A DNA stretch of 64,000 nucleotides from Mesostigma viride (Eukaryota; Streptophyta; Mesostigmatophyceae; Mesostigmatales; Mesostigmataceae). Both the position numbers and the translations under genes were made by a program. The stretch is from the NCBI GenBank assembly GCA_009746045.1, contig RPFO01002283.1, positions 109,741 to 173,740 on the forward strand, in the 5' to 3' direction. How positions within the stretch are numbered: position 1 is the stretch's first letter; each line of letters begins with the position of its first letter. Under the pieces are notes generated by a model. It saw only the letters and a list, made by a program, of their open reading frames with translations. It had not been told where the DNA came from and ran no database searches. Positions 8,671 to 55,195 of this stretch are shown here, piece by piece.

Positions 8671-8676
8671 GGGGGA

Positions 8677-13965: not shown

Positions 13966-14103
13966 TTTCCTCGTTCCAGTTTGCGTGGACTGACGGGTGT
14001 CAGCAGGCCTTGGACTTGCTGCAGCAGAAGCTCACGCCAGCCCCTGTGTTAGGATTGAGCATTCTTGGAATCCACCCAGCCTGCTATGACCTGTTGGTGA
14101 TCT
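13966..14103 (+). pseudogene. Ty3/gypsy RT to RNase H junction remnant
   Basis: The frame reads F-Q-F-A-W-T-D-G-C-Q-Q-A-L-D-L-L, then QKLTPAPVL, which follows the hallmark F-x-W-T-x-x-C-x-x-A-F-x-x-L-K-x-x-L-x-x-A-P-V-L that joins RT and RNase H in Ty3/gypsy polyproteins. The expected P-D and T-D-A-S motif downstream is missing and stops follow soon. This is the only clear coding sign in element Y and it sets its superfamily. Confidence 0.55.
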
Positions 14104-15999
14104 GAGGGAGGTCCCCAGTTGGGATGGATTGGGGATTTATTATGGCTCGGTTACCTGCCACTCTGTTGTGGTGATACAGCATCTGTCCCTGACTACCTCT
14201 TCCCTTGAGAAGGGCTGGAATCTTTGGGTGTGCTGTGGTGACTAGCTTTGATGAGCCTTGGACCCTGGCAGCCCAGTTAGTTTGGGGGTTGCTGTATAGA
14301 GGGTTAGCCTTGCTACATGACACTCTGCTTCCTGCCCTGATCAAGCAGTGAGAGTTGTCAGTATTTCGTGGCATGGATCCCTGTGGATGACCCGTTATCC
14401 CTGGGAATGTCAGGCTTGTCTTTCACCCGTGGACTCTAGCTGAGGGAGGGTGGTGTCCCAGAACATGGAGTGGCCTCGCCTTGTTTGGCTTAGGTGCCTT
14501 GATCCTGTTTACTCCTTCTTGGATTCATGTGGACTCATTGAATCCGACGGGGATCTGAGTTGAGTGGGATGGACTCTGGTGGGAGTTTGGTTGGACTAAG
14601 CTGAGATGACATCCAGATTTTGGTGACCAGTTTCTGAGGATGGTTGAGGGGATCTGAGCTTGGATGGCACATGGAGAGTGACTTCTGTGTTGTACCCTCG
14701 ACATATGGAGTGGTTCACCTAGGGCTTGATTCCTGGTATGATTAAGACACGTGGGTCATGTTCTGCATGCACGTCTTCGTGTACCAGACCAATAGTATAT
14801 ACCTGGAGGTTTCTACCTTGGTGCTGCTGAGTGGCCTATGTGGATCATAGGAACTGCACGGGCCCCTGTGACCACTATGAGACTTTGGCCAAGGCGTTGG
14901 CTGCACTCAACAGAGAGGAGGGGGAGGTGAGCTCTGAAGGCTATGTGGAGGAGGTCCTATCTCAGCTGCACACAAGCCTGTATGAGAGTGGCTCCCCTTT
15001 TTGTGGCTCATCTGCTGCATAGGATGTATGCATTGTCACCAGGACCTGAGATTGACATGAGGCCTGCTGAGGGGCCGGTCATGCTGGCAGCCTTACCTGA
15101 GGCCTTGAAGGAGGCATTTACTCAGTTGCAGCCAGTGAGTATGGGAGAGGCTTCCTACATGGAGCTGTTGGAGTTTTCAGTTCAGAAGGGTGACTTTGAT
15201 TTGGTTCCTTCTTCCTCCAGCTCTGCCAGAAGGTGTTTTCCTTTGGAGACTTCTAACCTCTTTTGCATCCAGGGTTGCCCAAGTACACTGTGGAACTTAA
15301 GTCCGTCAGACGCCACTAAGGGTGCTGGTGCCTCTGATAGGTGCTAAGTGGTCGGTGGTCAAGACCTTTCTGCAGTTCTGGTGGGCGTACAGATCATGGG
15401 TGAGCAGGCACAAGACGTCCTCTACTTGGGTGATGGACCCTGAGAGTCAGTCTGTGGTGCTCTCTCCTATCCAGGGGCATGCCTTCGCTATGCTGCCCAG
15501 ATGGTGGCAGGAGCTGCTGAGACTTGCGTGGTGTTGCAGGTCAGCAGGACTGGCCAGAGTTGGCCCACATGGTGGAGCAGTTTCCCATGTGTGGACTCAA
15601 GGGCAAGGATGGCCTGAATGGGGATTGGTATAGCCTGTGAGGAACAGGGCTGAGAAGGAAAGGGGGCTTTGGATTGTGGTGTGAGGGGGGGATTCCAGGA
15701 TGGATGATGGGGGGGCTCCAGTCCAGTTCTGATGTTCCAGTCCAGAGTTCCAGGTTCCAGGATGCTGAATGGAAGACCTTGTATTATGAGATGTGTTTAT
15801 CTGGATTTATAGTAGATAAGGTAGTGACTTGTCTGCTGTAGAAACCTGTGACTAGATGTTTATGAGATAGGAGGCCCTGTTTCCAGGGATGTAAAAACCC
15901 ATCTGCTTTTCCCAAGAGATGGTGGATTTCTGTTCAATGTTCCTCTGCCTTCAAGAGTTGGCTATTGGACCTGGGAGGTCCAGTTTTGAGGGGGAGATA
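14104..15999. other. Decayed 3' interior of element Y
   Basis: Open frames up to 134 codons exist (14831-15022, 14943-15347, 15322-15633) but carry no RNase H, integrase or chromodomain motif that I recognise. The end is the polypurine tract before the 3' LTR. Confidence 0.5.
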
Positions 16000-16778
16000 T
16001 GTAACAAGCAAAAATGACTTTGTTGTTACATCCTTTGTTTTGTGAATGTTTGGCTTTTATTTGAGGACTTTTGGATCAGTATTGAGAAAGTTATGAGGTT
16101 TCTAAGACGACGGTACTTGGAGCTGATACTTTGTCAACCAACTGATAGGAACCCTCATTGGTCGTGGCCTGATCCACGTAGGGTTGTAGTTTGTTGGCTG
16201 ATACTACTGATAGGAGCCCTCATTGGTCGTGGCCTGATCCACGTGGGGTTGTAGTTTGTTAGTTGGTACTATTGAGTCTTAAATGCTCCTTTGGGACTTC
16301 AGTGCTTACGACAGATTTAGGATCTCATGGAAAGATTCTGCCAGGCTGTGTGTGGTGTTGTTCTGTTCTGTGTGACTAGGATGGATACGAAGATCTTGTA
16401 TAGAATCCCATGGTTCTGATTGGTTCTCTTCAGGCTAGGGTTGGAGCAAGTTCGACAAGCACGTCGATATCAAGGACGTGGGGTCGCCATTGTTGCTACG
16501 TTGGTTTTGATTCACCATGGTATAATAAAGCTTGTCTTTGTTGTCCATCCATAAGAGCCCCTTGGCTATAGACGTCCTTCAGTTCCACAGAGGTCGTCTA
16601 TACACGAGCTTGTCTTTGTGTCTACAAGGGGTTGTGATTCCCTAAATCACGTGCTGTGGAATTCCCATCTCAACGTTGCTCGGATACTTGAAGTTCTGCG
16701 ACTCAGGAAAGCAACCCAGGTAAAAGATCTTTCATATTGGACTGTGGATGATGTTGATGATCATTTTTAGTCGTTACA
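16000..16778 (+). repeat. 3' LTR of element Y
   Basis: 779 bp, about 99% identical to 8677-9457, and followed by the GGGGA duplication of the target in element X. Confidence 0.92.
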
Positions 16779-16995
16779 GGGGAGAACATCTTCGAAATTT
16801 TTAAAAATTGCAAATTCGTACAAACCTGAAATCAACAAACCTGGAATCAACTCCCTTTGCTGCAGCCAGTCAGTTTTTAATCCAAGAGTTCCGGCTCCTT
16901 GACGACAGCCTGTATTTCGTCTTTGTAGTCGTTGACCATCGTTGCTACCTCATCGCCATTTTATTGTCCTGAACTTTCTCTTTTTTTTTTCAAGA

Positions 16996-17910
16996 ATGGC
17001 AACTGCAACTGTGGCAGCTACCACCAAGGCTACCAAGGACCTCAACCTGATTACCGCCTGCAAGAGCATCACTCCTTTCAATGGCTCCGACCCCAGCAAA
17101 TGGCCGGGAGGACACGAAAATTCCGCTTGTAGCAATAATTTGTGGCCGCTTTTGGCATGCTCAATATTCTGTTGGGCGTGGAAGATGATGAGCAGCGTGA
17201 CTTTATTCTTTTTGCTGCTCTGACGCAGTGCCTACTAGTGGGCCCGGCTCTTAAGCTCGTGAATAATGTCCCCCAGAAAGTTGGGAGCATTGCCTATAAA
17301 CGTCTATGCGAGGAATACGAACAGCCAAAGCTTTTAATGAGCAATCGTCGTGCCCTTAGACGCAAGATTAACAGAATGAAACTGGAACGGGGACAGACCA
17401 TGCGCCAATTTCTCACGCAGGGCGAGATGGACCACGCTGACCTACAAGCTGCCGGTGGCCACATGGCCGAAGAAGACCTGGCTGAAAACTTTATTGCTGG
17501 CGTGCCTGATGATTTACTGCCTGCACTTGCTTCTCTTAACCTGGCTGACAAAGTGACGCTTCAAGAAACCAAGGCCGCTCTTCTCAAGGCCTGGGATATT
17601 GTTCACGGCACCAAGTCTGCCGAGGAGGCGCACTCAGGCACCGCCTACCACACCCACCGTGGCCGCGGACGCGGGGGCGGGGGCAACCGCGGGGGACCTA
17701 CTCGTGATGCATCTGTCAAGTGCACCCACTGTGGCCGCTTCCGGCTCTCACGAGGCGGATACCTGCTGGCACAAGTACCCTCACCTGCGTCCCACCCGTG
17801 CCAATCACACCGACGGGGGACAGCCAGCAGCCCATCTTACCTTCATCGGCACCACGGACACCACTCCCCCTGGCAACACCATGGACATCCCCTATGGGTT
17901 CCACACCTGA
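16996..17910 (+). pseudogene. gag of element X, frameshifted
   Basis: The frame starts at an ATG (MATATVAATTKATKD) after a T-rich stretch. It contains F-N-G-S-D-P-S-K-W, the usual start of copia-type gag, then a helical UBN2-like region (RTLARRK-type basic stretch, MRQFLTQGEMDHADL, LAENFIAGVPDDLLPALASL), an RGRGRGGGG linker and a zinc knuckle C-x2-C...H-x4-C. The reading frame changes near 17105-17140 and again inside the knuckle near 17740, so this copy is inactive unless these are sequence errors. Protease, integrase and RT do not follow. Confidence 0.75.
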
Positions 17911-18287
17911 GACAGCACGCAGTAGCTTCAGCTGCCAGCTGCACCCAGCGACCAGACGTGGCGTCTTGAGAGCTGCAGCAGCACCTGAGCACCCCTGTCT
18001 CTAGGCATTGCCGCAGTCACCCACCCCGACCAGACGTGGCGGGCAGGAGCAGAAGTAACTGCCAGCATATCTGCCTCATCAGTGACAAGTACCAGTCACC
18101 AGCAACCAGTACCAGAAATCACCGGCTGTAGCGCACTCCCAGGGACACTTGGGGGCTCCAGTCATCTTTGTGTTTGTAACAACCGTCTTTTGGTCCCTGT
18201 CTGTCCTTAACATCAGGATAGCCGTGCAAGGGGGTGGTCAGGGAACCTGTTGTATACCCGGCTACCCGGCTAGTTGAGCAAGGGGGG

Positions 18288-18973
18288 TGTCAGGGTTTTG
18301 ACCCTATGATCATGTGCCCAACTGCCTATGTGAGATAATTGTGTTTGTGGCCATCCTGATGTACACGGAGGTATTAGGGTTTGCGTCCCTAATAATCGCA
18401 CCCGCCTGCCGTATATCTGGCCGATATAATTAATAGGCTAAGTAGGGCTTGCCGTGATATTTCCGGCACAGTTTGTAGCACTGAAAATAGTGCCGTATAG
18501 CAAATTAAGTTACAGAGTGCCGAAGTTGTAATTCCGGCACAATACTTTTCGTACCTACGGTGTCAGAATTACTTGGATCATGGCTTGCGTGGCTGTGTCC
18601 ATAAATGATACTAGCGGACGCCCAACCAAGGCGTGACAAAATGTTTAAGTTGAGCCGTATGCACTTGTGGAAAGAAATCTGATATACTAGGTAGAGTACC
18701 AAGTGCTGGGCGCCGCGCCCTTCACCCATGTATGGGCCAAATGCATCCAACGCCCACGAATGCGCCGCTCCTAACTGGACGGCCAATACTGCATGCGTGG
18801 TTTTGTGACTTGCCAGCTTTCAGGCAGGCAACGTAGCATTTAACCTTTGGGTTGTCTCCTTAACAATTATGCCTCAGGCTCCGCAATAAAAACTGGCTAT
18901 GGTAACAAAGTTGAGATGAGTTACACATGCAATATATAATTTCGAGACGACTCCTAGGTCTATTTTCTTGACA
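18288..18973 (+). repeat. 3' LTR of element X
   Basis: 686 bp; the uninterrupted version of 7599-8655. It is preceded by the tract AAGGGGGG and followed by the target duplication CTACC. Confidence 0.92.
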
Positions 18974-29463: not shown

Positions 29464-29510
29464 CACTATACTATAAACTTACGGCCCGTACACGTATACG
29501 GGCCCCGTAT

Positions 29511-30207
29511 AGTTAACGTTCTTCGCACACGCAATGTGAAGGATATGGTTGCAATGCAGCAATGTGTGAATATGGTTGGAAACGGAGCTTTGTTAAATCG
29601 GATAATGTTTACAGCGCTCAACACTTGAGGCTTGCACACGAGCTTGCCAAGTCAAGGCACAACACGTGAGGCGGGCTCGCAAGAGATGCCCATTTGGCAC
29701 TGGCCTATTGTTTATATACTTGTGCACTGTGCTTGCTAGTCCTGAGCAGCCTAGGAGGCCTGCTCAGTAATAACACTCCCGGTACAGTATTCACTACCTG
29801 TACAGCGCCCAGCTCCTATACAGTAGGTCTGCCATACAGGCACAGTGACCACAGAGTACAGTCACCACAGTGATTATTGCATCTGCACCTAGAAGTCCAG
29901 GACTAAGCCTGCGGTACCAACAGACCACAGGTTAAGGTTCCTATTTCCTGCGTACGACGTATTAATCCAATACCGTCGTAGGTACAGCACCTAATTCCTG
30001 TCAGCCCAGGAATTACTGTCGACCCCATATGTCGTCGGCAAATATTCACGTCCGACTTAGAAGAACAGCCGGCTCGCGCTCGCGCGCGACCGGGAAGTCG
30101 GAACGCCATAACTTTCTTGATACTTGTCGGAATGAACTCGTTCCGGTGCCGCTGGAATCGCAGAGATATGCCGAATCAGGATCACGCCAATGCGCTTGGC
30201 GTTAACT
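29511..30207 (-). repeat. 3' LTR of Copia-A
   Basis: 697 bp, AGTTAACG to CGTTAACT, about 99% identical to the other LTR. Contains a hairpin CTGAGCAG...CTGCTCAG near 29743-29768. Confidence 0.93.
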
Positions 30208-30226
30208 CCAATCCTTTCTTTTCTTG
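30208..30226 (-). promoter_or_regulatory. Polypurine tract of Copia-A
   Basis: On the minus strand the sequence is AAGAAAAGAAAGGATTGG and lies immediately before the 3' LTR, where plus-strand DNA synthesis is primed. The same position of Copia-B has a similar purine run. Confidence 0.75.
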
Positions 30227-30750
30227 AGCTGTAGCAGCTCACACAAGTCTACATACAAACACACACAATGGGTACTGGATATCCTCCCCAGACTACAAGT
30301 CACAACCCGCTGGGCATGACAGTCAGCTTGGATTCCTTATTATATGTACATAGCACCCATACTGGCTCAGGAGCACAAACAAATTACAATGAGTCCCTAT
30401 CCCTTCACGGGAGGCTCGTTGTGTTACCCATGTACAAGAGGTTGGCCAACTGTGGCAGCCCATAGGTGTTCAGTTAAGAACTTGAGAAGTATGTACAACC
30501 TTCAGGACCTTAGGCGAAACCCCACAGATCACCCACAACAGCTCATCAGAAAACATTGCTGACCCCCAGACGGGAGTCGGCGCCGGTCTGCTGCCCCTTA
30601 TCGAACCAGACACAACATCTACGCGAAGCACATGCAAAACACAAGCTCCTCTACTCGTTCCAACCGTGGAAAATCAGGGGACCTGTCGCCACCTCACCAG
30701 CATGGTGGATGGGTCAGCCAGTCCGTGAAACTCCGCCTTAAGACGGCACC

Positions 30751-30766
30751 AGGGAATCGAACCCCG
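30751..30766 (-). other. tRNA T-arm / box B-like motif in Copia-A 3' UTR
   Basis: The minus strand reads CGGGGTTCGATTCCCTG, which folds as a 5-bp stem with a 7-base TTCGATT loop and contains the box B consensus GGTTCGATTCC. A matching motif lies at the same place in Copia-B. No full cloverleaf could be drawn. Confidence 0.4.
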
Positions 30767-30955
30767 CCCACAAACCACAGATCTGGGGAAACCTCAGACT
30801 GAGATGAAAACCCCAGATAGACATCTCTCCATCAGAGACAATGTCAGACATTCCCACACCAGAGACATGTCTCACCCCTCAAGGTGTGCTCAGGATTATG
30901 TACAATCAAGCTCCCAGCCTGATATCCAGAGACTTAAGCACCCAGCTCTCAGCTT

Positions 30956-33900
30956 TTAGACAGATAGACCGACTTGACAGTCAGCATTCATGAGCTTCCT
31001 CAGTACATTGTACTGGGCTGGGGCCTTGTGTGGCAGCTTTGTCAATGCATCAGCAGGGTTCTCCTCGCCAGGGATATGCTTCAAGTCAACCAAACTGGCC
31101 AACTCCTTCAGCAACAAATAATCCAGGTCCCGGCTCCTGGCCAGCTGCTTGTGAACAAACTGGACCATACCCATGCTGTCTGTTAGCAACAACGTCTCCA
31201 TCTGCAAGGTCCAAGGGGTAACTGAAGCCAGCTCCAGCATTAACTCCTTTATGTACAGGCTGGACTGGATCCCCTCGCATATGGCCCTGCATTCTGCCAC
31301 ATCTGAACTGATACAGACCCTCTTCTGCAGTCTGCTGTACCAGCTGAACAAACTTGCCCTGCTCTGATAAAAAGCAAACAGAGCAGCAGATCTCCCCCTG
31401 ACCTTGGTAACCTGGCGAGCATCCATGGAACTGTCAACAAAGATCTCCAAGGTGATAGGCTGGGTAAAGTCAATCCCAGACAAAATCAGATCAGGGGTAC
31501 TCTCCACCAACCGGGCTATGACTCGAGGCTTCTCATCCTCAAGCACCTCATCAGGCATTCTGCTATGGACCATCAAAGACGGACCACAGATGCTGGCAAA
31601 CCAGGCCCACATGCCTCTCAACTCAGGTCCTGCAGCCTGGGTGATCTTCTCTGGCAAGGCCTTCACAATGGTCTGTTTATAATCTCCTCCAGCCTGAAGC
31701 CTGATACTCCACTCCCCGTCCCTCCTGAACAGGGTAGCCTGCATTCCACAGAACACTACAGGCTTGTTGGGCTCCTGCCACAGCTCCTTGCCCAGTGAAA
31801 ACTTGCCACTGATGACAGGAATAAACTTCTTCAGCCAGGTCGTGGGGGCTAGCAAATGCAGATCATCTCCATGCAAACTAGCATACACTGGCAGACCCTC
31901 CCATTGGGCCAGCAGCAAACAGGGATCAACTGAAGACACTCTCAAGCCACACTCACTGATCAGAGCTTCCTGCAGCGTGAGTCTCCAGATGATTGGGCTC
32001 GACCTGAGTCCTTCCAGGCCCTTCAGAATAACCAGGAATTGTTGATGCAGCTCCAGCTTCCAGATGGCAGGCACCTCAACACAGTAAGGCTCATCCTGCT
32101 TCCACACCCTCCTGGCCACTTCTGGATCAGATTTTAAAAATGCCCTCTTGAAGTCCAGCAGCACTGATGACATAGCTGCTCCCCTGTTCAGCAACCCCAC
32201 GTAGAGACATAGCAAAATTCTCCATGTGTCGTGTAGCATCCCTGGCGTGTATAGCTCCTCTCCTGGCAGACTCCCCGTGCCGTGATACTCATTCAGGACA
32301 GGCCTGACATGGGGCACTGATACCTCATCCACAACCTTCCTCTTCAGCACAAATCTCAAAGCAAGCTTCCTTGATGCTGGGGGACGTCTGTCTGTTGGTG
32401 CAGCACACTCAAACTGCAACCACTCCTCCAATGCCTTGGAGAAGGCGAGCTTCCAAGCCTCAAACAAAGTAGGCGAGCTCATCTCTTGGACCAGCTGGTC
32501 ATATGTCAAAGGAGAGTGTGCAGCAAGGCTCCTGTGAGTTATGCCAATACTGCTGGGGTGCAACACAGCTGGAATCACCAAACTGGCCGCTGGGGGCACC
32601 TCCCCTTCATCCCATTTTACACCCTTGACCGGCTTGGCCCTGCACCTGACTGGAAATGTTGTCCTGAAATTTTCTAGGGGAATCATCCCCCAGCCATCTC
32701 TTCTCAGAGCTGTAGCTCTGATAGAAATCCCAGGATTGCCCAGAAAATTCTGACCCAAAATCACAGGGCCATCATAGTCCTCTAGGACAAGGAAGGTCAC
32801 ATCCACACCCATGACAGGGGCAGTAACCTCTCCCAACACCCTTAGATGCGTCCTACCACTGAAATCAGACACCCAGGGGCAACTTGGTTCTCCGACCAGC
32901 AGTTCTCCTGTATGCTGAGGTCCCATGACAGAAACCTGTGCATTGGTATCTATCTCCATGGCAGCTACCTCAGGTTCATCCAACTGGACAAGCTTGGACA
33001 CCTTAGGCTCCTTCTTGGCTCTTTGCAAAGCCTGTACAATATCTGATAGACGCACACCCCTAGGCCTGGTGTCGGGCCGTTCCGGAGGTGCAGCCTGTCC
33101 GCCTGCTTGCCCAACCACCGTATGTGAAGGTACCCCAGGGGCCGGGCCAGGGTCACCCTGAGGGCTCGATACAGCTGTAGCACCCTGATCAGGAAGCTCC
33201 ACGTCACCCCCGCCTTGTACACCAGCGGGCACCTGGAAGAGGTCTCCTTGATTACCTCCCCGGGGACGGATCTTTGACCAGGACAGACGGTGCACTGCTT
33301 GGGAGCCATCAATGGCCACCCAGCACTTATGGCCAGCGGCTTCTACTCGGGTCACCACCCCATCATGCCAGCTGCCACGTTTCCCTGGAAAGCTTGGTTC
33401 CTTCCACACAACAACCTGTTGTCCAACGTTAGGTTCTAGGACACTCCAGCCCTTGTCTTTCTGCCTCAGCTTGAGGAACTTGGCCTCTAGCTTCTCCTTC
33501 CATGCCTGCTCAGCATCAGCTGGCAGCATCCTGGTATGCAGCATAAGAGGATTGATGGCAATGTCACCAAAGAACATGGGAGTCCTCAGGTTCAGCCTGT
33601 CCTCCACAGAACGTAGCCATGCAGATGTCACAATGGCAGATGACGTCCTTGGAATCCTCTCCACCAGCAGCACAGTCTTGATCTCTTGGATGGCTCTCTC
33701 CACCACCCCTTGCTGGCCGTGGCTCTCCCTGGGTGTAATCAGCAACTCTGGAAACTCTGGCAGGTTCTCACAGCACTCAAACTGAATGTCACACTGCAAC
33801 AACTCCAACCCAGGGTACCTGCTCCTTGTCAACTTCAGAGCAGCAATCAATGTAGGCTTCTCCATGTCAGGCAGGATCTCTAGGGTCTTGTACTTGGTAT

Positions 33901-34552
33901 ATCTGTCCACTGCCACCAGCAGCTTCAAACCCCTGATTCTCTGAATATCTACCTGCACATGGCCTGGCTGCAAAATAGGAGTCCTGGCATGAGACTGCTT
34001 GGGCTTTCTAGCAACTAGCCTGCACTTGCAAGCTTGAGCAACCTGTTGGCAGATGGAGTACAACTCACTTCCTCCCAGCCGTCTAGCAACTTGCAAAGAC
34101 TGAGCTGCATGGCCAAACATGGTATGCAACCTTGAGGCAATGTCATACAAGAGAGAAAACCTTTTATTGTCATTATTAGCACTCAAGGTATGTACAGATC
34201 CCTTATGTACAGGAGGCACCAGGGTCGTGCCTGTCAGACTGTCTCCAGCCCTATCCTCATCCTGACCATCCTGTGCCAGTCCTGCACGGTCAGAATGCTT
34301 CTGAGATCCACCTGGGTCCACATCACCAGGTCCTACCTCAGGCTCAGCACCGCCATGGCGGGCACGTTGGCGAGTAACCACTGCAGCTACAGCTGGCATA
34401 CTCTCTGTGGTAACCAAGCTTGCCCCATCGTGTCCAATAGGCTCTTTCACTAGAGCATGGGGCTGCCCCTCACTGCTGTCACTAGCAGCTTCATTACACA
34501 CCCCTGGGGGCACCCTCCAGGGTTCAGGGATGTGTGCAGGCTCAATCAATGA
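30956..34552 (-). CDS. Copia-A pol polyprotein (IN-PR-RT-RH)
   Basis: The frame opens at 34552 after a stop and runs 1197 codons from 34549. Residues about 140-430 are integrase: H142, H147, C174 and C176 as a degenerate zinc site, then D201, D254 and E284 (GVVER) and a basic C-terminal part. Residues about 530-605 look like a retropepsin (EIDTNAQVSV, later VILGQNFL). Residues about 690-945 are a copia-type reverse transcriptase (VRPVLNEY 748-755, LDFKRAF 798-804, GLEGLRSSPIIW, HGDD 893-896). Residues about 1035-1170 are RNase H (D1039, E1086, D1124, D1167). It makes and integrates the element's DNA. The frame starts 4 bases before the gag stop, in the -1 frame, with no ATG, so a -1 shift or reinitiation is implied. 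Confidence 0.9.
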   Translation of the reverse strand, partial: SLIEPAHIPEPWRVPPGVCNEAASDSSEGQPHALVKEPIGHDGASLVTTESMPAVAAVVTRQRARHGGAEPEVGPGDVDPGGSQKHSDRAGLAQDGQDEDRAGDSLTGTTLVPPVHKGSVHTLSANNDNKRFSLLYDIASRLHTMFGHAAQSLQVARRLGGSELYSICQQVAQACKCRLVARKPKQSHARTPILQPGHVQVDIQRIRGLKLLVAVDRYTKYKTLEILPDMEKPTLIAALKLTRSRYPGLELLQCDIQFECCENLPEFPELLITPRESHGQQGVVERAIQEIKTVLLVERIPRTSSAIVTSAWLRSVEDRLNLRTPMFFGDIAINPLMLHTRMLPADAEQAWKEKLEAKFLKLRQKDKGWSVLEPNVGQQVVVWKEPSFPGKRGSWHDGVVTRVEAAGHKCWVAIDGSQAVHRLSWSKIRPRGGNQGDLFQVPAGVQGGGDVELPDQGATAVSSPQGDPGPAPGVPSHTVVGQAGGQAAPPERPDTRPRGVRLSDIVQALQRAKKEPKVSKLVQLDEPEVAAMEIDTNAQVSVMGPQHTGELLVGEPSCPWVSDFSGRTHLRVLGEVTAPVMGVDVTFLVLEDYDGPVILGQNFLGNPGISIRATALRRDGWGMIPLENFRTTFPVRCRAKPVKGVKWDEGEVPPAASLVIPAVLHPSSIGITHRSLAAHSPLTYDQLVQEMSSPTLFEAWKLAFSKALEEWLQFECAAPTDRRPPASRKLALRFVLKRKVVDEVSVPHVRPVLNEYHGTGSLPGEELYTPGMLHDTWRILLCLYVGLLNRGAAMSSVLLDFKRAFLKSDPEVARRVWKQDEPYCVEVPAIWKLELHQQFLVILKGLEGLRSSPIIWRLTLQEALISECGLRVSSVDPCLLLAQWEGLPVYASLHGDDLHLLAPTTWLKKFIPVISGKFSLGKELWQEPNKPVVFCGMQATLFRRDGEWSIRLQAGGDYKQTIVKALPEKITQAAGPELRGMWAWFASICGPSLMVHSRMPDEVLEDEKPRVIARLVESTPDLILSGIDFTQPITLEIFVDSSMDARQVTKVRGRSAALFAFYQSRASLFSWYSRLQKRVCISSDVAECRAICEGIQSSLYIKELMLELASVTPWTLQMETLLLTDSMGMVQFVHKQLARSRDLDYLLLKELASLVDLKHIPGEENPADALTKLPHKAPAQYNVLRKLMNADCQVGLSV

Positions 34553-35806
34553 TCAGCAGCCTTGCCCTTGCCCTTGTCCTGGGATGGACCAGCCTTGTCC
34601 TTGCTGCCACCCTGAGCTGGCTTGCTCTGACCTTCCTGCCTCAGGTACGAGGGACACTCATTCCTGAAGTGACCCTTCCCCTGGCAGAAATAACATTCCA
34701 CCTGACTGATGTCCCGTGAGGTCCCACTGCTGGGCCCAGCCTTGGGAGGACCACCCACCCTCTTGAAGTCAAACTGGGACTGTGGATGTCCCGACTTCGG
34801 CGGGGTCCCCCGTCCAGCCCTTCTGTCACGCCCCCTCCTGGACCTTCCTCGACCCCTTGAAGAGGTCTCAGGCCCTCTCGAGGACGCTGGGCCCCCGTGG
34901 CCCGATCCCCTCATGGACTTAACCGTGGGTTCAGTGGCCTCCTCATCATTCTGACGAGGGCGCTTACCACCCACGTACTTGCCGCTGAAACACTCATACA
35001 ACTGGTCCGTCATGGCTGCCCAGCCATGGACCTGTCGCATGTGGATGGTCACATTATCCATGGTGACCGGATCCAGTGCAGCGACTTGAGAAAGTCGCCC
35101 ATGGCCATCCGATCTGCGACGAAGAAGCCCTTGGCCATGGCGTCCTCCCTCAGCTTGACGAAGTCTTCAAAGGCGTGGACCACTAGCTGCCCCTTGATGG
35201 GCTTGTAGTCCAGGTATTCTTGCTTCAGGTGGGACCCATCTATGGTCCTCTTGTCACTCAGGAACACCTGAGTCGCGTCATAAACGCCGCCCAGGTGTCC
35301 CCCGCCGCGTGTCGCTCCCGAACAAACTTGAACAGCCGCCTCGCCGACTGCCGTATGTAGGCACTAGACGCCAGGATGCGAAGCTTGTCACCGTTGTATA
35401 TCTCCGTGTACAAGTTCATGTCCTCTAACATCCTCTCAGCATCCCGGGGCTGCCAATTGTCCTTGATGGACTGAAACTGGCCTAGCACCGCGTACCCCTC
35501 AGCAACGGTTGGTCGCTTAGGCGCCGCTTGATCTGCGGCTGGCGCGTGCTGCCCGCCCTGCGATCCTTGGCTCTGATTATCTGGCACCTCAGCCTGGTCT
35601 CCCAGCGCCTGGCCGTCCCCGCGTCCATCGCGTCCACCGCGTCCATCGCGTCCATCTCGTCCATCCAGCCCAGCGCCGCGCCGCCGAAGCCCATAAAGCC
35701 CGCTTGTTGGTTGATAGCTCCATCCTCCATGATGGCCTCTGTTCAGATCTGCTACAGCCAGCCAAGTGGCCAAGCAGCAATTAAAGCAATATAAGCTACT
35801 GAACAA
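34546..35806 (-). pseudogene. Copia-A gag, frameshifted
   Basis: Three adjoining frames (35806-35258, 35267-35049, 35061-34546) together resemble gag. The first has the helical capsid part (YAVLGQFQSIKDNWQPRDAE, RRLFKFVRERHAAGDTWAAF), the second FLSDKRTIDGSHLKQEYLDY, the third a basic RG-rich linker and the zinc knuckle C-Y-F-C-Q-G-K-G-H-F-R-N-E-C (CX2CX4HX4C). The product packages RNA. Frame changes near 35280 and 35085, and a possible one in the 9-bp GCGTCCATC repeat near 35640, break it, although pol is intact. The likely start is the ATG at 35730, which has a different frame. Confidence 0.75.
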
Positions 35807-36190
35807 GAAAGGAAAGTGCCAAGTGTTACCACTCAGGCAAGACCACCACGGCTGGCCCCAGGCGCGTCCTGGTTCTCCTTGTCGCTGTCGTCGTCGCTGT
35901 CGCTCACCACAATCAGCTCTGGTACCCTGCTACCTGCTGCGCCGTCGTCGACCCGCTGTCGGCCCGCGATGACTGAATCGTCACCGTTGGTAAAGTAGAC
36001 AGGTGACAACCCGTCGTTGGCACCTCGCGGATTGTACGTTGGCACCTCGTGGTCGCCAAGTGCCTCGTCGCCTAGCCCAGCGACACCCCCTGCTCCTACC
36101 TCAAGGTCACTCTCGTACCAAGAGGTGCAAACTCCTCCCAACGCGTCACACGAACGCGAAGGGGCGGGGGCAGCTCCTGAAAAGGAACTC

Positions 36191-36751
36191 TTACTCGCTC
36201 TGGAAACCTGCCGACTCTTGTCGCGCGCTGTCCTCCGGCGATGGCTTCCGCTGTCGCCCCGACCTCTGCAAGCCGCCTGTGATGCTCCGCTCCGCGTCGT
36301 TCACGCCTAACTGGCCCGCTGCAACACCCTCGTCGCCGATGCCGCCTGCGAAAGCACGTGGTACTCCCGCGCCCGCTACTGTCGGCACAAACTCGTGTCG
36401 CCCTGCGCCAGCTGCCTCCGCAACCTCGCCTCGCCTTGCTGCCAACTCCGTCCGCACTCGCTCTGCTACTGCAGTAATCACCGTCTGGATGCCGACCAAC
36501 CCGTGAAGCTCCTGCTCAAGGTCGTCGATGCTCCGGTGCTCCGGAATGACGATGGTTTGTACGTGTCGCAGAATTCGCTCCCAATCTTCGACCTGGTCGT
36601 CGACGAATTGCACGAAGCTGCGATTTACAGGCGGACGATCTGCAAGCAACAAAGATAGATCCCGAACGACACGGCGTAATTCAGGAGAAATCGAACCCCC
36701 AGCAGACTGCCGAAACCGGAAATCCTGCTGCCGTTGTTCCTCCTGCACCAT
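36191..36751 (-). CDS. Copia-A upstream ORF of unknown function
   Basis: A true ATG at 36751, 93 bases inside the 5' LTR end, opens 186 codons. The protein is Q-, R- and E-rich at the start, contains ELRRVVRDLSLLLADRPPVN and a helical region (DDQVEDWERILRHVQTIV, DDLEQELHGLVGIQ), then an A/G-rich tail. It could be the N-terminus of gag separated by later frame errors, or a separate ORF before gag. The relative at 45395-45673 also has an ORF here with LRRLAEFLDQLTPEQP, weakly alike. Confidence 0.45.
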   Translation of the reverse strand: MVQEEQRQQDFRFRQSAGGSISPELRRVVRDLSLLLADRPPVNRSFVQFVDDQVEDWERILRHVQTIVIPEHRSIDDLEQELHGLVGIQTVITAVAERVRTELAARRGEVAEAAGAGRHEFVPTVAGAGVPRAFAGGIGDEGVAAGQLGVNDAERSITGGLQRSGRQRKPSPEDSARQESAGFQSE

Positions 36752-36844
36752 TCACCACCGGACGAGCTCCTCTCGTCGTCAAAGCTGCACACCGCAACCG
36801 GCAACGACCCTCCTGGCCGTTCCGCTGAGACTGGTTGTAATTTG

Positions 36845-37540
36845 AGTTAACGTTCTTCGCACACGCAATGTGAAGGATATGGTTGCAATGCAGCAATGTG
36901 TGAATATGGTTGGAAACGGAGCTTTGTTAAATCGGATAATGTTTACAGCGCTCAACACTTGAGGCTTGTACACGAGCTTGCCAAGTCAAGGCACAACACG
37001 TGAGGCGGGCTCGCAAGAGATGCCCATTTGGCACTGGCCTATTGTTTATATACTTGTGCACTGTGCTTGCTAGTCCTGAGCAGCCTAGGAGGCCTGCTCA
37101 GTAATAACACCCCGGTACAGTATTCACTACCTGTACAGCGCCCAGCTCCTATACAGTAGGTCTGCCATACAGGCACAGTGACCACAGAGTACAGTCACCA
37201 CAGTGATTATTGCATCTGCACCTAGAAGTCCAGGACTAAGCCTGCGGTACCAACAGACCACAGGTTAAGGTTCCTATTTCCTGCGTACGACGTATTAATC
37301 CAATACCGTCGTAGGTACAGCATCTAATTCCTGTCAGCCCAGGAATTACTGTCGACCCCATATGTCGTCGGCAAATATTCACGTCCGACTTAGAAGAACA
37401 GCCGGCTCGCGCTCGCGCGCGACCGGGAAGTCGGAACGCCATAACTTTCTTGATACTTGTCGGAATGAACTCGTTCCGATGCCGCTGGAATCGCAGAGAT
37501 ATGCCGAATCAGGATCACGCCAATGCGCTTGGCGTTAACT
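36845..37540 (-). repeat. 5' LTR of Copia-A
   Basis: 696 bp, same ends as the 3' LTR, followed on the coding strand by CAAATTACAACC. No standard methionine-tRNA primer site was found at this junction. Confidence 0.93.
37045..37052 (-). promoter_or_regulatory. TATA box in the 5' LTR
   Basis: TATATAAA on the coding strand, in the middle of the LTR, as expected of an RNA polymerase II promoter at the U3/R border. The 3' LTR has the same box. Confidence 0.5.
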
Positions 37541-37789
37541 CGTATACGGCCCGTAAACGTATACGGGCCCCGTATACGGCCCGTAAACGTATACGGGCTC
37601 CGTATACGGTACGTAAACTTTACTTCAATATACGACGAAAAGTATATGGGCCGTAAAGTTTACGGCCCGTATACTTTTTGTCGTATACTTTAGTAAAGTT
37701 TACTTTAGTATACGAAAAAAAGTATACGGGCCGTAAAAATTACTACCGTATACTTTTTGTCGTATACTAAAGTAAAATTTACTTTAGTG

Positions 37790-40110: not shown

Positions 40111-41184
40111 ACCTTCATTAGGATTCGCTGATACTCATTTCCCCTCTCACCTCTTTGGTACATAATTGGCTAATAAAATATACCCATTTCCCCGAAAAAG
40201 ATTCTATATTTGCCGAGGGCCGGATAGAACGGTTGCGTGTACGGGACTGGTTTCAGGAACGCCCCCGTACCTGTGCTAGTCGAGTTTGCAGGTGGGGAGT
40301 TGTGAACCGCCGCGCCGGGCGAGAACGATTTTTCGAATTTATCAACGATCACAAGCGTCTGCCCTTGCAACGCTTGCCTCATAATTAGCCGGCCATGCCG
40401 ATTTGCAGTCGCCAGCCGGTCAGTAGTGGTGAAAGAATATTTGGTCTAAAAAAGAATCGCGGGCTTATTGCGCCTGAAGAAGAAGAAAGCCAAAGGCGCA
40501 CTAGAACAAGCCTTTGGAGCCGCAGTTTAGCATGATTGAGTTATCATTTTTCCAGCCATCTACAGCGCTCTCTCCGATACAGCTAGCCTACCATGGCGTA
40601 GTCCTTAGCCAGCTACATCAATTTGTTCGTCTTTGTTCCTAAAGGAAATTTAAATTTCGTGACATCGTGCGCATGCGGCATTTCACGAAGCTACTGCAAT
40701 CGCATTACGCTAAACAAAGTAAGCCAATGTTCCTAATCAGCGCCCGCATATGCATGCCACGTTTAGTCGCAAGGAGTCGCATAGGCTATCTGTCTCACAC
40801 TTTGTTAATCATCGCTCATTTGCTTACTGCTCCATGAGGGGAGCTGTGTACTACTGATTCTCTATCTTTTATGTATGGCAGTCGACTTAATGTCTTTTGC
40901 CATTCTTCAGGTTTCCACTCGTTCCCGTCGCTTGACAGGCTACTAAAGATGCCTTTGAGTTACGCGACATTTTCGGCCTCGTTTACTCTACACCCGGCAC
41001 ATCTGGGCTACTCATTATGTGCCGATGTCCACCGTAAGTTATTCAAGTTTTTTGCCTTGCATGGTTGTCAGTTTTGCTGGGCAATTTCTCCCCACCGAGA
41101 TCTCTTTTTTCGCTTTGGCAACGCCATGCTATTGTATGGTATGCCTTCGTGCCATGCTAGTGGGTAGGTAGGTTCACGTGCTTG
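40111..41184. other. No recognisable gene
   Basis: One stretch, 40910-41031, looks exon-like: it follows a pyrimidine-rich TTCTTCAG, holds ATG at 40950 and ends at CACC/GTAAGT. The peptide (MPLSYATFSASFTLHPAHLG) matches no family I know. Confidence 0.35.
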
Positions 41185-42495
41185 TTCGTTGTCAAGAGAG
41201 GAATGCGTGTGGGTGGGTGGGTGAACGCACTTTTTCCCTGTCAAGGGAGGGATGCATGTGGGGTGGGTGAGTGCAAGTGCTTTTTCCTGTCAAAGGAGGG
41301 ATGCATGTGGGGTGGGTGGTTGCACGTGCTTGTTCCTTGTCAAGGGAGGGATGCACGTGGGGTGGGTGGTTGCACGTGCTTTTTCCTTGTCAAAGGAGGG
41401 ATGCATGTGGGGTGGGTGAGTGCACGCGCTTGTTCCTTGTCGAGGGATGCATGTGGGGTGGGTGGGTGCACGCGCTTGTTCCTTGTCAAGGGAGGGTTGC
41501 ATGTGCAGTAGGTGGGTGCACGTGCTTGTTTCTTGTAAAGGGAGGACTGCATGTGGGGTGGGTGGCTGCATGCGCTTGTTCCTTGTCAAGGGAGGGATGC
41601 ATGTGGGGTGGGTGGGTGCATGCGCTTGTTCCTTGTCGAGGGAGGGATGCATGTGGGGTGGGTGGGTGCACGTGCTTGTTCCTTATCAAGGGAGGGATGC
41701 TTGTGCATTAGGTGGGTTCACGTGCTTGTTTCTTGTAAAGGGATGGATGCATGTGGGGTGGGTGGGTACACATGCTTGTTCCTTGTCAAGGGAGGGATGC
41801 ATGCGCGGTGGGTAGGTGCATGCTCTTGTTCCTTGTCAAGGTAGAGATGCATGTGGGTGGGTGGGTGCATGAAATTGTTCCTTGTCAAGGGAGGGACGCA
41901 GGTGGGGTGGGTGGGTGCACATGCTTCTTCCTTGTCAAGGGAGGGATGCATGCGCGGTGGGTGGGTGCATGTGTGTGTTCTTTATCAAGGGAGGGATGCA
42001 TTGCAGTAGGTGGGCCCACATGCTTGTTTCTTGTAAAGGGAGGGGTGCATGTGGGGTGGGTGGGTGCACGTGCTTGTTCCTTATCAAGGGAGGGATGCTT
42101 GTGCATTAGGTGGGTTCACGTGCTTGTTTCTTGTAAAAGGGAGGGATGCATGTGGGGTGGGTGGGTACACATGCTTGTTCCTTGTCAAGGGAGGGATGCA
42201 TGCGCGTTGGGTAGGTGCATGCTCTTGTTCCTTGTCAAGGTAGAGATGCATGTGGGTGGGTGGGTGCATGAAATTGTTCCTTGTCAAGGGAGGGACGCAG
42301 GTGGGGTGGGTGCACATGCTTCCTCCTTGTCAAGGGAGGGATGCATGCGCGGTGGGTGGGTGCATGTGTGTGTTCTTTATCAAGGGAGGGATGCATTGCA
42401 GTAGGTGGGCCCACATGCTTGTTTCTTGTAAAGGGAGGGGTGCATGTGGGGTGGGTGGGTGCATGCGCTTGTTCCTTGTCGAGGGAGAGATGCAT
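41185..42495. repeat. 50-bp G-rich minisatellite
   Basis: About 26 units built on GGGAGGGATGCATGTGGGG and TGCTTGTTCCTTGTCAA. The period is 50 bp (for example 41591 to 41641). A block of eight units is itself duplicated with a 398-bp period (TTGTGCATTA at 41701 and 42099). Open frames in this array are by-products of the repeat. Confidence 0.9.
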
Positions 42496-42508
42496 GTGGG
42501 CCGCTAGC

Positions 42509-43690
42509 TTCCCTCCCCTCCCCTCCCTTCTTAGCTTCCCTCCTTCCTTGCATTACTTAAGTTCCTATAGCTTCCTTCCCCTCCCCTCCCATATCCCATA
42601 GCTTAATGCCCTTCCCTTTCCTCCCTCTCCCTTAGTAGCTTTCCTCCCCTCCCTTGCTTAGCTTCCCTCCCTCGTTGCATTACCTAAGTTCCTTTAGCTT
42701 CCTTCCTCTCCCCTCCCATCCCTGAGCTTCCCTCCCCTTTCGTCCCTCTCCCTTCTAAGTAGCTTTCCTCCCCTTCCCTTTGTTAGCTTTCCTCCTTCCT
42801 TGCATTACCTAAGTTCCTTTAGCTTCCTTCCCCTCCCCTCCCATGTCCCATAGCAGACCTAAAAATATCACGGAAATATCTACTGGCATTCGCGCCAGCT
42901 CGGTTCTAAAACTGGTCACTATTTGTAGTTACGAGTAAAATTAGTAACTAGAAATAGGTACCAGTACCATCCAAGGGTTAATGCCCTCCCCTTTCGTCCC
43001 TCTCCCTTAGTAGCTTTCCTCCCCTTCCCTTTCTTAGCTTCCCTCCTTCCTTGCAGCACCTAAGATCCTTTAGCTTCCTTCCCCTCCCCTCCCATCCCTG
43101 AGCTTCCCTCCCCTTTCGTCCCTCTCCCTTAGTAGCTTTCCTCCCCTTCCCTTTCTTAGTTTCCCTCCTTACTTGCATTACCTAAGTTCCTTTAGCTTCC
43201 TTCCTCTCCCCTCCCATCCCTTAGCTTCCCTCCCCTTTCCTCCCTCTCCCTTCTAAGTAGTTTTCCTCCCCTTCCCTTTCTTAGCTTGGGGGCTTCCTTG
43301 CATTACCGAAGTTCCTTTAGCTTCCTTCCCCTCCCCTCCCATCTTAGCTTCCCTCCCCTTTCCTCCCTCTCCCTTAGTAACTTTCCTCCCCTTCCCTTTC
43401 TTATCTTCCCTCCTTCCTTGCATTACCTAAGTTCCTTTAGCTTCCTTCCCCTCCCCTCCCATATCCCATAGCTTAATGCCCTTCCCTTTCCTCCCTCTCC
43501 CTTAGTAGCTTTCCTCCCCTCACTTTCTTAGCTTCCCTCCTTCCTTGCATTACCTAAGTTCCTTTAGCTTCCTTCCCCTCCCCTTTCATATCCCATAGCT
43601 TAATGCCCTTCCCTTTCCTCCCTCTCCCTTAGTAGCTTTCCTCCCCTCCCTTGCTTAGCTTCCCTCCCTCGTTGCATTACCTAAGTTCCT
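42509..43690. repeat. 125-bp polypyrimidine minisatellite
   Basis: Nine units of 120-129 bp, almost pure C and T on the plus strand, can be counted by the anchor GCATTACCTAAGTTCC (42550 to 43676). Many units carry CCCATAGCTTAATGCCC. One unit is interrupted at 42856-42979. Confidence 0.88.
42856..42979 (-). mobile_element. End fragment of the piggyBac-like element
   Basis: The sequence is the inverted relative of 5172-5297, up to the terminal ATCCAAGGG, and abuts TTAA followed by TGCCC. Elsewhere in the array the same position reads AGCTTAATGCCC, so the insertion used this TTAA. The other end is truncated and lacks its TTAA. Confidence 0.7.
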
Positions 43691-44249
43691 TTGGCTACTT
43701 GGGAGCGGCGGGAGCGATGCCGACGAAAGGGCTGGCTGCGGCAAGAACGTCGTCCAGCGACCGGGTTTCTGGGGCGGCAGGTGTTGTTGGGCCTCCATAG
43801 CTACGGGGAAGATGTCGAATGCTGGGGCGGGGGGCGCAGGCGTGCTATTCACGAAGGGAATGCCGCCATATCGAGTCGAAAATAGCGATATCTGCTGGGC
43901 AGGCCGAGGTCGAGAACGTACGAAATCGGGGACGATAGCTGCCGGAAATTATACCAGCGTGTTTGTCATCAGAAGACGAGTCGAATGCAACAAACCCGAC
44001 TAAATTTCATGGCCTGAGTCGAAAGTTATGAGCATTCTCGGCAGCCATAGCTCGGCATATTTTCGCGTACGTCGTGGAGCTGATGCTCTGGGAAATTTGA
44101 ATGACTGATAAGGGTTAGTTCAACTAGTGTGTTTCTTAGTAGTATAATGTGTTTCTTCATTAATTTGAATGATTGATAGTTGATTAATTAATTTGAATTA
44201 TTGCCACATGATGTTTCCATGAAGTCAAATGACAACGCAAATCACAATA
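43691..44249. other. No recognisable gene
   Basis: GC-rich at first, then AT-rich. Two opposite frames near 43655-44003 (65 and 63 codons) are open but neither shows a known motif. Confidence 0.4.
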
Positions 44250-44587: not shown

Positions 44588-45398
44588 TTCTCCGTCCTTC
44601 CCCCCCTTGCGAAGATGAGGGTGCTTCTTGTAACACGTTGCGACCTTGTGTCCCTGTTTGCCGCAGTGGAAACAGCCTCCCTTCTTCCCGTCATCCATCG
44701 CCAGGGTAGCAAAGACGCCAGCCAGAGAACTAGTGTCCCTGGTGTCCCCCTGCTTCCCCCCGCCTGTGTTGCGCATGATCGATGGCCGCCTGGGCCTTGA
44801 TGCTGTCCTCAATCCTCAGCACACGTGCCTTGTACTCATCCCACGTGAGTGTGGTGATGCGTACATCCTGCGCTGCCATCATCACCCGGATCGCGGCGGA
44901 CATGAGATCATGAGTAGAGAGGACCATGTCCTGGTCGTCAAAACGCCCGTCCAGCTCCTGGACGTACTCCTCGCGCGTCAGCTCCCTCGCTGCCAGAAAC
45001 TCATTGAGGAGCTTGTCCACTGGGGCAGGCTCCTTGGAACGAAGCTTGCGACGCAGTTCATCCTGATAGGTCTCAGTTGTACGGTGGTGACCAAATCTCT
45101 TCATCAGGAGCTCCCATGCCTGTTTTGCACTGGTCACATTCTTGACCAGCATAAGAGCCAGGCCATCTAAAAAGATGCCCATCGCGGCCTGAACTGCCGC
45201 GTCCTTGCCATCGTTCTCGATCTCACCCGTGATTACCCCATACAGGTTAAAGGCTTTCAGCAAACGGGTAAAGCGGACATTCGTCGCCTCCCACTTACGG
45301 GGATCCACACCATCAAACTTCGGTAACTTATCAGCAGCACTAATGAAGGCCCCAATGCTGGTAGCCGCTGCTACTGCTGCGTTGGCTGCCATTGTCAC
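44588..45398 (-). pseudogene. Copia-type gag, 3' truncated
   Basis: The main frame (45398-44730) starts MTMAANAAVAAATS and has F-D-G-V-D-P-R-K-W, a helical UBN2-like capsid (MGIFLDGLALMLVKNVTSAK, WELLMKRFGHHRTTETYQDE, ELTREEYVQELDGRFDDQD). After a frame change near 44790 it continues to a zinc knuckle C-F-H-C-G-K-Q-G-H-K-V-A-T-C (CX2CX4HX4C) and KKHPHLRKGGKDGE, where the palindromic element cuts in. The neighbour on the right is a leader ORF and an LTR, so this is the 5' part of a copia element on the minus strand. Confidence 0.75.
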
Positions 45399-47360: not shown

Positions 47361-48881
47361 CTATGGCCGCCCGTGTAAGGGGTCCATGAGCCCACGGAGC
47401 AGGGGGTACTGCCTCTCCGCCTTCTCCTCCAGCTTGGTGAGGGCATCTGCAGGGTTGTCCACACCAGGCACATGTTCAATGTGAGCTAGGTAGGACATCT
47501 CCTTGAGCAACAAGTAGTCAAGGTCCCTGCTCCTGGCCAGCTGCCTGTGCACAAATTGCACCATGCCCATGCTATCTGTCCTCACCAGTGTGTGCAGCTG
47601 CAACCTACAGGAAGCCACTTGACATAGCTGGTAGAAGAGCTCCCTCAAGTAAAGAGCAGTATGCAGCCCTTCACAGATTGCCCTGCACTCAGCAATATCA
47701 CTGCTGGGTGTAACCCTGTTCTGCAACCGACTGTACCAGGTAACAAGTGAGGTGTGATCTTGCTCCAGGGTAACTAATGCTGCTGCCCTGCCCCTGACCT
47801 ATGTGACCTTCCTATTATCCATAGAACTGTCCACATAGAGAACCATGTCAAGGGGCTTGTACAAATCCACAGGACCCAGTATAAGAGGGGGAGACATCAT
47901 GACAGCCTGCACCACACTCTCAGCACCCACCTCAACCAGCTGGGAATCAGTAAGTCGACTCAAAACCAGCAAGTCAGGGGCACATATACTTGCAAGCCAT
48001 GCCAGCATGCCCCTGATGGTAGCACACCTAGCCTGCGTGATGGGCTCCTGCAATGCATCTACAATCTGCTGTGGGTAGTCCTTACCACCCTCCATCCTGA
48101 TGAACCACGAGCCCTTGGCTTGGAACAACGTAGCCTGCATGCCACAGAAGACCATAGGCTCATTCTCCACCATGTGCTGTATCTTACCCAGCTCAAACCG
48201 CTTCTGGATCTTAGCCAAGACAGCCTCAACCCAGTCTGGTGGACCTATGAGATGCAGGTCATCACCATGCAGTGAGGCAAAGACAGGAAGGCCATTGTGG
48301 GACCCTTGGAACAAACAGGGATCCACTGGAGACACAGAAAACCCACAAGTATTCTTCAAGAATTTCTCTAGGCTCTTTCTCCAGATAATGGGACTGGACC
48401 TGAGACCTTCCAACCCTTTCAGAATTCTCAGGTACCTGGCCTTTATCTCTGCTCTCCATACAGCAGGTACAGTCACAAAGAAAGGAGGGATATCTCTCCA
48501 AGTCTGCCTAGCCTGATCTTGGTCACCCTTGAGAAAAGCCCTCTTGAAATCAATCAGCACAGAGCTATAGGGCACACCCTTAACCAGAAAAGACAGAAAT
48601 ACACACAGCAGAATCCTCCACGTGTCATGCAGCATCCCTGGAGTATAGAGCTCCTCATCTAACAACTGGCCAGTGCCATGATACTCGGTTACAACTGGTC
48701 TGACATGTGGCACCTGGACACCATCTACCTCCTTGAGCTTGAGGACAAACATCAATCTGAGCAGCTGGTGAACTTCTGGCAGCTCATCCACAGGCTCTGC
48801 ACAGTTGGAAACTATCCACTCATGCCCAGAAGCAACAAAGCCAAGAGTCCATGCCTTAGCCATCTTGGGGCTTTGCATCAT
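47361..48881 (-). pseudogene. Copia-B reverse transcriptase and RNase H
   Basis: One frame except for an in-frame TAG at 47801-47799, at a position where Copia-A has AAG (lysine). RT motifs are VRPVVTEYHGTG, LIDFKRAFLKGD, LKGLEGLRSSPIIW and ASLHGDDLHLI; RNase H motifs are LYVDSSMD, PSSDIAECRAICEG, RTDSMGMVQFVH and NPADALTK. It shows the same HGDD as Copia-A. The stop makes it inactive unless read through. Confidence 0.85.
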
Positions 48882-49492
48882 CTCGACTAGTAGCTGGCGC
48901 CAGGGAATAGGACTGTGAGCAGCTACTGATCTGGTACCTGTTTACCCCTAACTGCCGTGGATCAAAGGTGGTTGGGATTATCAACAGGTCCTCAGCTATG
49001 GGCTCCTGACCTTGAGGACCCTCAGCTGGCTGACTCCTAACAGCCTTGACCGCCACTGCAAGACCCTGGGAATAGTGATATCTTTCAAGGGGGACTGAGG
49101 CTGCCCCTGCCTTCTAGTGCCAACTCATCAGAGGTCAAAGTAACCCCTGGCATGCACAAGAAGTTCTGACCCAGAATGGCAGGCCCGGCCCTGATAGCCC
49201 TCTACCACACAGAACGTGGTGGGCACCCCTAAGATAGGCACACTCACTTCCCCAAGGATCTTTATGGACACCTTTCCTGAGAAATCAGACACAACAGCAA
49301 GGCAACTGGGATGGGACATCTGTAAGCCTACAGCATCCTCTTCCCTGATGACAGACACCTGTGAGTTGGTATCTACCTCCATCAGTTGTAGCTGCCCAGC
49401 ACGACCCCCACCCCGTGAGCTTGGATACCTTGGGATCATGTTTGCTGCGCATGAGTGCTCGGATGACGTCCGCCATGAGAGCCCCCCGGGCC
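48882..49492 (-). pseudogene. Copia-B protease region, frameshifted
   Basis: Fragments in two frames match Copia-A: ADVIRALMRSKHDPKVSKL, then MEVDTNSQVSVI, VSDFSGKVSIKILGEVSVPI and a damaged form of the ILGQNFL segment. The active-site triplet is DTN, as in Copia-A. Frame changes lie near 49420 and 49150. Confidence 0.7.
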
Positions 49493-49864
49493 TTAGCCCC
49501 TAAATGGGCAGAAATACTGCCGATGCATCGGCTGTAACTTCACAATTTTGCAAACCAGATGCCATCCAACCCACCCATATCCAATGGCTGTCCTTGGGGG
49601 CCAAGCATGTCCATGAGTTGCCCTTCGGGTTGGTATATCACAACCTTACATATATTCATTGAGAATGATAGATTACGGAGGTGAGATAGGCATGCAACAT
49701 AAGGAAAAACCCGATAACTGGGAGAATAACCCTAAAGAAATTAATAGTAATCTGACACAGACATCCAAGGATCACGCCAGCGGCACAAGGTACAACTAAC
49801 TAGACATCACAAAACTACACGCAGCAACAGCGCTGCTGGCCCACCATGCAGGCCTGGAAGGGAT
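49493..49864 (-). other. 3' untranslated region of LINE-A
   Basis: Nearly the same sequence occurs at 2035-2425. It contains the palindrome CCGATGCATCGG near its end and stops close to CATTTAGGGGCT. It is probably the part recognised by the reverse transcriptase. Confidence 0.65.
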
Positions 49865-55192: not shown

Positions 55193-55195
55193 GGC

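Follow-up and report, generated by a model that had tools for sequence, protein, structure and literature searches.

Structure of the Copia-A element

The analysed stretch (the window) comprises 64,000 nucleotides of Mesostigma viride (contig RPFO01002283.1 of assembly GCA_009746045.1, forward-strand positions 109,741 to 173,740). It contains a long terminal repeat (LTR) retrotransposon, here called Copia-A, which spans positions 29511-37540 and whose pol shows the motifs of an integrase (IN), a block resembling a retropepsin-type aspartic protease (PR), a copia-type reverse transcriptase (RT) and a copia-type RNase H (RH), in this order. A broken copy of a sister family, Copia-B, is found in the same window, and genome-wide searches were performed on the 440-Mb assembly (2243 contigs). 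The host, which we read as a green alga, gives 33 Pfam matches to chlorophyll a/b antenna proteins across the genome; of two that were fetched, one was compared with the PDB, where a multi-domain LHCI chain is its best match, followed by LHCII chains, several of them named siphonaxanthin chlorophyll a/b LHCII. All features are given in window positions and lie on the - strand unless otherwise indicated. An earlier note on this DNA had placed Copia-A at 30956..34552; this interval corresponds to the pol frame, but the element is larger and covers 29511-37540, including its LTRs, an additional frame upstream and a gag that contains a zinc knuckle.

Alignment of both LTRs delimited a 5' LTR of 696 bp (36845..37540), with the ends AGTTAACG...CGTTAACT, and a 3' LTR of 697 bp (29511..30207). 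The pair is identical in 694 of 698 aligned columns, with three mismatches and one one-base gap, the final column being possibly the first base of the target duplication. A 5-bp target site duplication, CGTAT on the + strand, flanks the element at 29506..29510 (downstream side) and 37541..37545 (upstream side, where a 30-bp tandem repeat begins), and a polypurine tract, AAGAAAAGAAAGGA, was read from the sequence near the 3' LTR (30212..30225). The LTR ends are AG...CT and not TG...CA. Furthermore, TGG is absent from the start of the Copia-A internal region; another tRNA or internal tRNA priming may be used.

The genome contains 999 LTR starts (AGTTAACG), a count that leaves out starts with a G nine bases upstream. 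Contexts were seen for 36 of these 999 and correspond to 22 internal sides and 14 flanks, every flank being different. The 14 distinct flanks abutting AGTTAACG support the LTR boundary and show no sign of a preferred target; accordingly, a preference for the flanking tandem repeat as target was unsupported. Copia-A is a recent LTR retrotransposon, and all 39 scored pol copies, which are the best candidates only, match its pol at 100%, beginning with residue 1 or 2 and reaching the last one.

Domain order of pol in Copia-A and Copia-B

The Copia-A pol (30956..34552) is an open frame of 1198 codons without stop, located in the -1 frame in relation to the zinc-knuckle frame. An HHCC-like block of the integrase N-terminus (LHTMFGH ... 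C-x6-C-x-C; 34016..34129) was assigned by eye and precedes the integrase core, which shows D201, D254 and E284 (D-x52-D-x29-E; 33662..33958); the residues of both are kept in Copia-B. The core gives weak matches to Pfam rve, with E-values of 0.057 for Copia-A and 0.0045 to 0.15 for Copia-B, varying with the piece submitted. Downstream of it, an SH3/Agenet-like block of the integrase C-terminus (33254..33442) matches Agenet with an E-value of 0.0067, under the Pfam cut-off, and shows strands at a predicted local distance difference test score (pLDDT) of about 57 in the AlphaFold model. The retropepsin-like block (32675..32974) lies between integrase and RT, and contains the motif DTN instead of DTG at the active site (32942..32950) and an ILGQNFL motif (32741..32761) that is the same in Copia-B. 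It is followed by the copia-type RT, with LDFKRAFL and LHGDDLH (31550..32512), and the copia-type RNase H (31037..31441). In residues of pol, the integrase motifs are found at 141-290, DTNAQ from 534, ILGQ from 597 and the RT and RNase H motifs from 798; pol ends soon after RNase H, with no integrase behind it. The positions agree with the earlier note, which had claimed an integrase upstream of RT, as in Ty1/copia, and DTNAQVSV (534) and ILGQNFL (597) between the two.

The Copia-B copy of the window (47364..49499) is broken: it contains PR at 49188-49391 and RT with RNase H, interrupted by an internal stop, at 47364-48941, and no integrase was found in it. The protease-to-RT arrangement that had been described for Copia-B is therefore present in this copy, but, broken and without a recognisable integrase, it did not by itself show the order, which only Copia-B loci elsewhere show with the integrase first. 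Among 30 fetched Copia-B loci, 10 show, within one frame, the integrase motif followed by QVSV, then ILGQNFL and finally the RT motif. In one copy, read to its start (contig C557, loci L069 and L043), pol is open over 1190 codons and has the order integrase, DTNSQVSV...ILGQNFL block, RT and RNase H, and locus L057 shares the same 1021 residues with it. The 108 scored matches to the Copia-B RT, again best candidates only, are all 98-100% identical, and some of their frames are near 1190 codons. Between Copia-A and Copia-B, identity amounts to 58% for the RT core and 48% for the protease block where it aligns, and their first about 120 pol residues are poorly conserved (20 of 120 identical). Since IN-PR-RT-RH is found in two families that differ at about half their residues, it is not the rearrangement of one copy.

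The gag region and the passage to pol

An open frame of 186 amino acids (36191..36751), with no Pfam match up to E 1, precedes the gag region of Copia-A, which extends over several frames (34546..35929) and contains the CCHC zinc knuckle of the nucleocapsid (34648..34698; Pfam zf-CCHC, 4e-05, above cut-off). In the best pol matches, the zinc-knuckle frame overlaps pol by 4 bases with a -1 offset in eight of eight Copia-A copies. The breaks in the capsid-part frame vary among the eight fetched copies (L001-L008), three of which have a 339-codon frame, and pol remains intact; a programmed frameshift as the origin of these breaks was rejected, since they differ between copies and three of the eight have the 339-codon frame. 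In the Copia-B copy, a single stop within CAG TGA CTA GCT (L069:352-363), which we take to be a context favouring stop readthrough, separates gag from a pol in the same frame. With the -1 offset of Copia-A and the in-frame stop of Copia-B, the two sister families would recode by different routes. Copia-B also shows a frame upstream of gag, of 316 codons, open at the locus edge (L078:1-948) and with no convincing Pfam match.

The retropepsin-like block between integrase and RT

Retropepsins of clan AA have the active site D[TS]G. A signature built on the two motifs and their spacing, which accepts N besides G and is thus partly post hoc, matches once in the Copia-A pol and once in that of Copia-B, in both at the block; it appears in 3 of 20000 shuffles of the Copia-A pol and matches seven of eight classical proteases fetched from the genome, several of them near-identical. 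According to Pfam, the intact Copia-B block matches gag-asp_proteas with an E-value of 0.046 over profile positions 12-90 of 92, its only match, and the Copia-A block matches the same family with 0.2 at positions 69-91 only, the ILG end. The proportion of nonsynonymous differences (pN) between the two families is 0.35 in the protease block, as compared with 0.39 and 0.37 in the integrase, 0.33 in RT, and 0.56 and 0.53 in the flanking linkers.

The pattern DTN-x-QV-(mostly S/T)-V has 943 matches genome-wide versus two for the reversed control, and the 100 matches seen are all of Copia-A or Copia-B type. The active-site residue is N in eight of eight Copia-A loci and in 29 of 30 Copia-B loci, the remaining locus being without both motifs. 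Together with the genome-wide pattern, this indicates that asparagine (Asn) is apparently fixed in both families, and we infer that it stands in for the active-site glycine. The pattern DTG-x-QV gave 28 matches against 13 for its control.

On this basis, we consider it quite probable that Copia-A is an LTR retrotransposon, with RT and RNase H of copia type, in whose pol an aspartic protease follows the integrase and precedes RT and RNase H. The protease assignment is drawn from sequence features, namely the motifs and their spacing, the weak Pfam matches and the lack of a retropepsin signature upstream, and the fold is unproven. The DTN block would be an active retropepsin that processes gag-pol, after a recoding step.

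Several results weigh against this assignment. The active site is without the usual glycine in both families. AlphaFold, run on the protease block with two sequences only, gave a pLDDT of 35.7, too low to prove a retropepsin fold; the integrase region alone gave 36.9. A profile search of the PDB with the block of both families found unrelated chains at chance level only, and PDB sequence searches with the Copia-A pol, the Copia-A integrase and the RT of both families found nothing relevant. Profile comparison with the classical proteases aligned 21 columns in the correct register, with a probability of 1.9% and a P of 0.025, near noise. A model of the block of both families against the eight classical proteases gave a best E-value of 0.028 and 0.27-0.51 for the others, near noise. 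The best match of the classical-protease model was the DTN block in Copia-B (E 0.62, also near noise) and the RNase H, not the DTN block, in Copia-A (E 1.5). Pfam E-values shift with the piece of pol submitted: the full-length Copia-A pol matches only Agenet (0.077), and 1021 residues of the Copia-B pol match RVT_2 (1.2e-4) and rve (0.15) but no protease. The broken Copia-B block of the window has no Pfam match, and in the Copia-A block an unrelated family, DUF6898, scores 0.16, as well as gag-asp_proteas. Finally, the proportion of synonymous differences (pS) is 0.56-0.89, near saturation, and pN/pS ratios are therefore no clean test of selection.

The likeliest alternative, although we consider it unlikely, is a block of retropepsin origin that has lost its activity and acts as a dimerisation or spacer module in a polyprotein that is cut by a host enzyme or remains uncut. 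The replacement of DTG by DTN in both families fits an inactive block, as does the fact that none of the 28 matches to the DTG-x-QV pattern resembles Copia-A or Copia-B. However, both families, diverged as they are, retain the Asp, the Thr, QVSV and ILGQNFL, the pN of the block is as low as that of the integrase, and it would be unusual if an element present in hundreds of copies, a large number of them near-identical, had lost its sole protease.

Very unlikely, in our view, is that the block resembles a retropepsin by chance, being an unrelated domain or an integrase tail and not a protease. The weak scores in every sequence search, the low pLDDT and the score of DUF6898 in Copia-A agree with it, whereas the only Pfam match of the intact Copia-B block is to a retroelement aspartic protease family, and the fitting spacing of the two motifs is rare in shuffled sequences.

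The presence of a divergent true protease upstream, in gag or in the upstream frame, which would leave a classical PR-IN-RT-RH element with an extra block, has an even smaller chance. There would be space for it, as the gag and upstream frames show, beyond the zinc knuckle, chance-level Pfam matches only. Nevertheless, the two-motif signature is absent from the three - strand frames of 34546-37540 in Copia-A and from the three coding-strand frames of the 2.4 kb upstream of pol in the Copia-B copy, and the poor conservation at the start of pol speaks against a protease in residues 1-120. A hydrophobic residue followed by D[TS]G occurs once in the - strand frames of 34546-37540, as ADSGS at 35963, and GDSGS at 36258 is found in addition when 34001-36844 is searched with a less strict pattern; by eye, neither context is protease-like. 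The earlier note had reported no DTG/DSG motif in gag or in the first 140 residues of pol. That the order arose in single copies by misassembly or recombination, for which no favourable point was found, has a practically negligible chance in view of the 39 Copia-A copies, scored as best candidates, that match pol from residue 1 or 2 onwards and of the ten in 30 Copia-B loci with the same motif order in one frame.

Relationship with Ty1/copia and other LTR retrotransposons

The order of the pol domains serves to separate the superfamilies of LTR retrotransposons. In Ty3/gypsy (Metaviridae) it is PR-RT-RH-IN, unlike that of the present element. In Ty1/copia (Pseudoviridae) the domains are named in the order PR-IN-RT-RH, and the primer site is complementary to a tRNA, usually the initiator Met (PMC8515867). 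Copia-A shares with Ty1/copia the copia-type RT and RNase H, the integrase upstream of RT, the CCHC gag, the LTRs, the 5-bp target duplication and the polypurine tract. It differs in the protease-like block of both families, placed between integrase and RT and not before the integrase, in the DTN active site, in an RT that is 24-28% identical to the sampled canonical copia of the same genome, in the AG...CT ends and possibly in the primer site, of which the usual form was not seen.

The copia-type nature of RT and RNase H, which the earlier note had stated, is borne out by profile searches. The Copia-B RT matches Pfam RVT_2 with an E-value of 1.1e-5 and 25.6 bits, below the curated cut-off of 31.6, and the Copia-A RT alone has no RVT_2 match in Pfam. 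An RT profile of both families matches the canonical copia RT of the same genome with a P of 1.9e-6 (four sequences, two nearly identical); a comparison with the canonical family L014 gave P 0.0022 for RT and 9.7e-6 for RNase H, and the integrase profile of both families gave no meaningful match to the L014 integrase. These profile matches and the 24-28% identity indicate that RT and RNase H belong to the copia type, though only distantly. The L014 family shows integrase, SH3 domain and RT in order; no protease match was found in the about 260 residues between its SH3 domain and RT, and the locus extends too little upstream to show the position of its protease. The RT active site is LHGDD in Copia-A and Copia-B (window 31859-31873) versus VHVDD in the fetched canonical copia of this genome.

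Other elements depart from such definitions. Gmr1 (Goodwin and Poulter 2002) is described as a gypsy lineage with the integrase placed as in copia (PMC2774666); in Gmr1-type Ty3/gypsy, as in the present element, the domains are not arranged as in the superfamily to which the RT points, but here it is the protease that would have moved, and the RT is copia-type. TG...CA ends are usual for LTR retrotransposons (PMC12440569) but not strictly defining. Troyka, whose LTR ends are not TG...CA either, was put forward as a new superfamily on the strength of features of this kind together with phylogeny (PMC12440569). It has the order PR-RT-RH-IN, LTRs that end CG...CG, duplications of 3 bp and a zinc knuckle of greater length (PMC12440569), all unlike Copia-A.

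Scans of viral contigs and genome contigs with two short peptides each, and a search of plasmid DNA, gave no relatives; as these collections hold prokaryotes, viral contigs and plasmids and are not intended for eukaryote genomes, this says little. In a literature search that did not extend to Repbase or to most subscription papers, no title or opening of an abstract described an IN-PR-RT order. The separate lineage that the earlier note had suggested is upheld as a divergent, self-consistent lineage, judging by the RT identity to the sampled copia, but not as a proven superfamily. We regard the element as a new variant of the Ty1/copia-like LTR retrotransposons that would work like copia, and neither as a proven member nor as a proven new superfamily. 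More doubtful, though conceivable, is a green-algal lineage of superfamily level, sister to Ty1/copia, defined by IN-PR-RT-RH, a DTN retropepsin and AG...CT LTRs, still or recently active and with hundreds of copies.

In the proposed cycle, the genomic RNA would be translated to gag and, by recoding at the gag end, to gag-pol. The mid-pol protease would dimerise and cleave the polyprotein, RT-RNase H would copy the RNA between the LTRs, and the integrase would insert the copy, making the 5-bp target duplication. If this is true, the copia-type pol order can change and still function, as its presence in two diverged families, each with many copies that are near-identical, would indicate. The elements would also allow one to see, in nature, whether Asn at the position of the active-site glycine is compatible with retropepsin activity and how a protease located between integrase and RT is released.

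Other features of the window

Nested direct repeats, 8676-9325/15999-16646 inside 7599-8561/18288-18879, with the listed 300-nucleotide copies 100% identical, indicate that window 7599-18879 probably corresponds to nested LTR elements. Weak matches to Retrotran_gag_2 were found at 17142-17969 (0.0026) and 44733-45398 (0.037), and these frames are possibly gags of other copia elements. A 50-bp minisatellite of 27 copies (41162-42500) adjoins a 127-bp pyrimidine-rich tandem array (42517-43696). Finally, a GC-rich block (65-71%) on the - strand (49868-55211) contains, in three neighbouring frames, a non-LTR type RT (RVT_1, 8.1e-13), a RING finger and a PHD finger, and is adjoined by a 230-bp tandem repeat of 38 copies with 99% matches (55196-63999) that reaches the window end.

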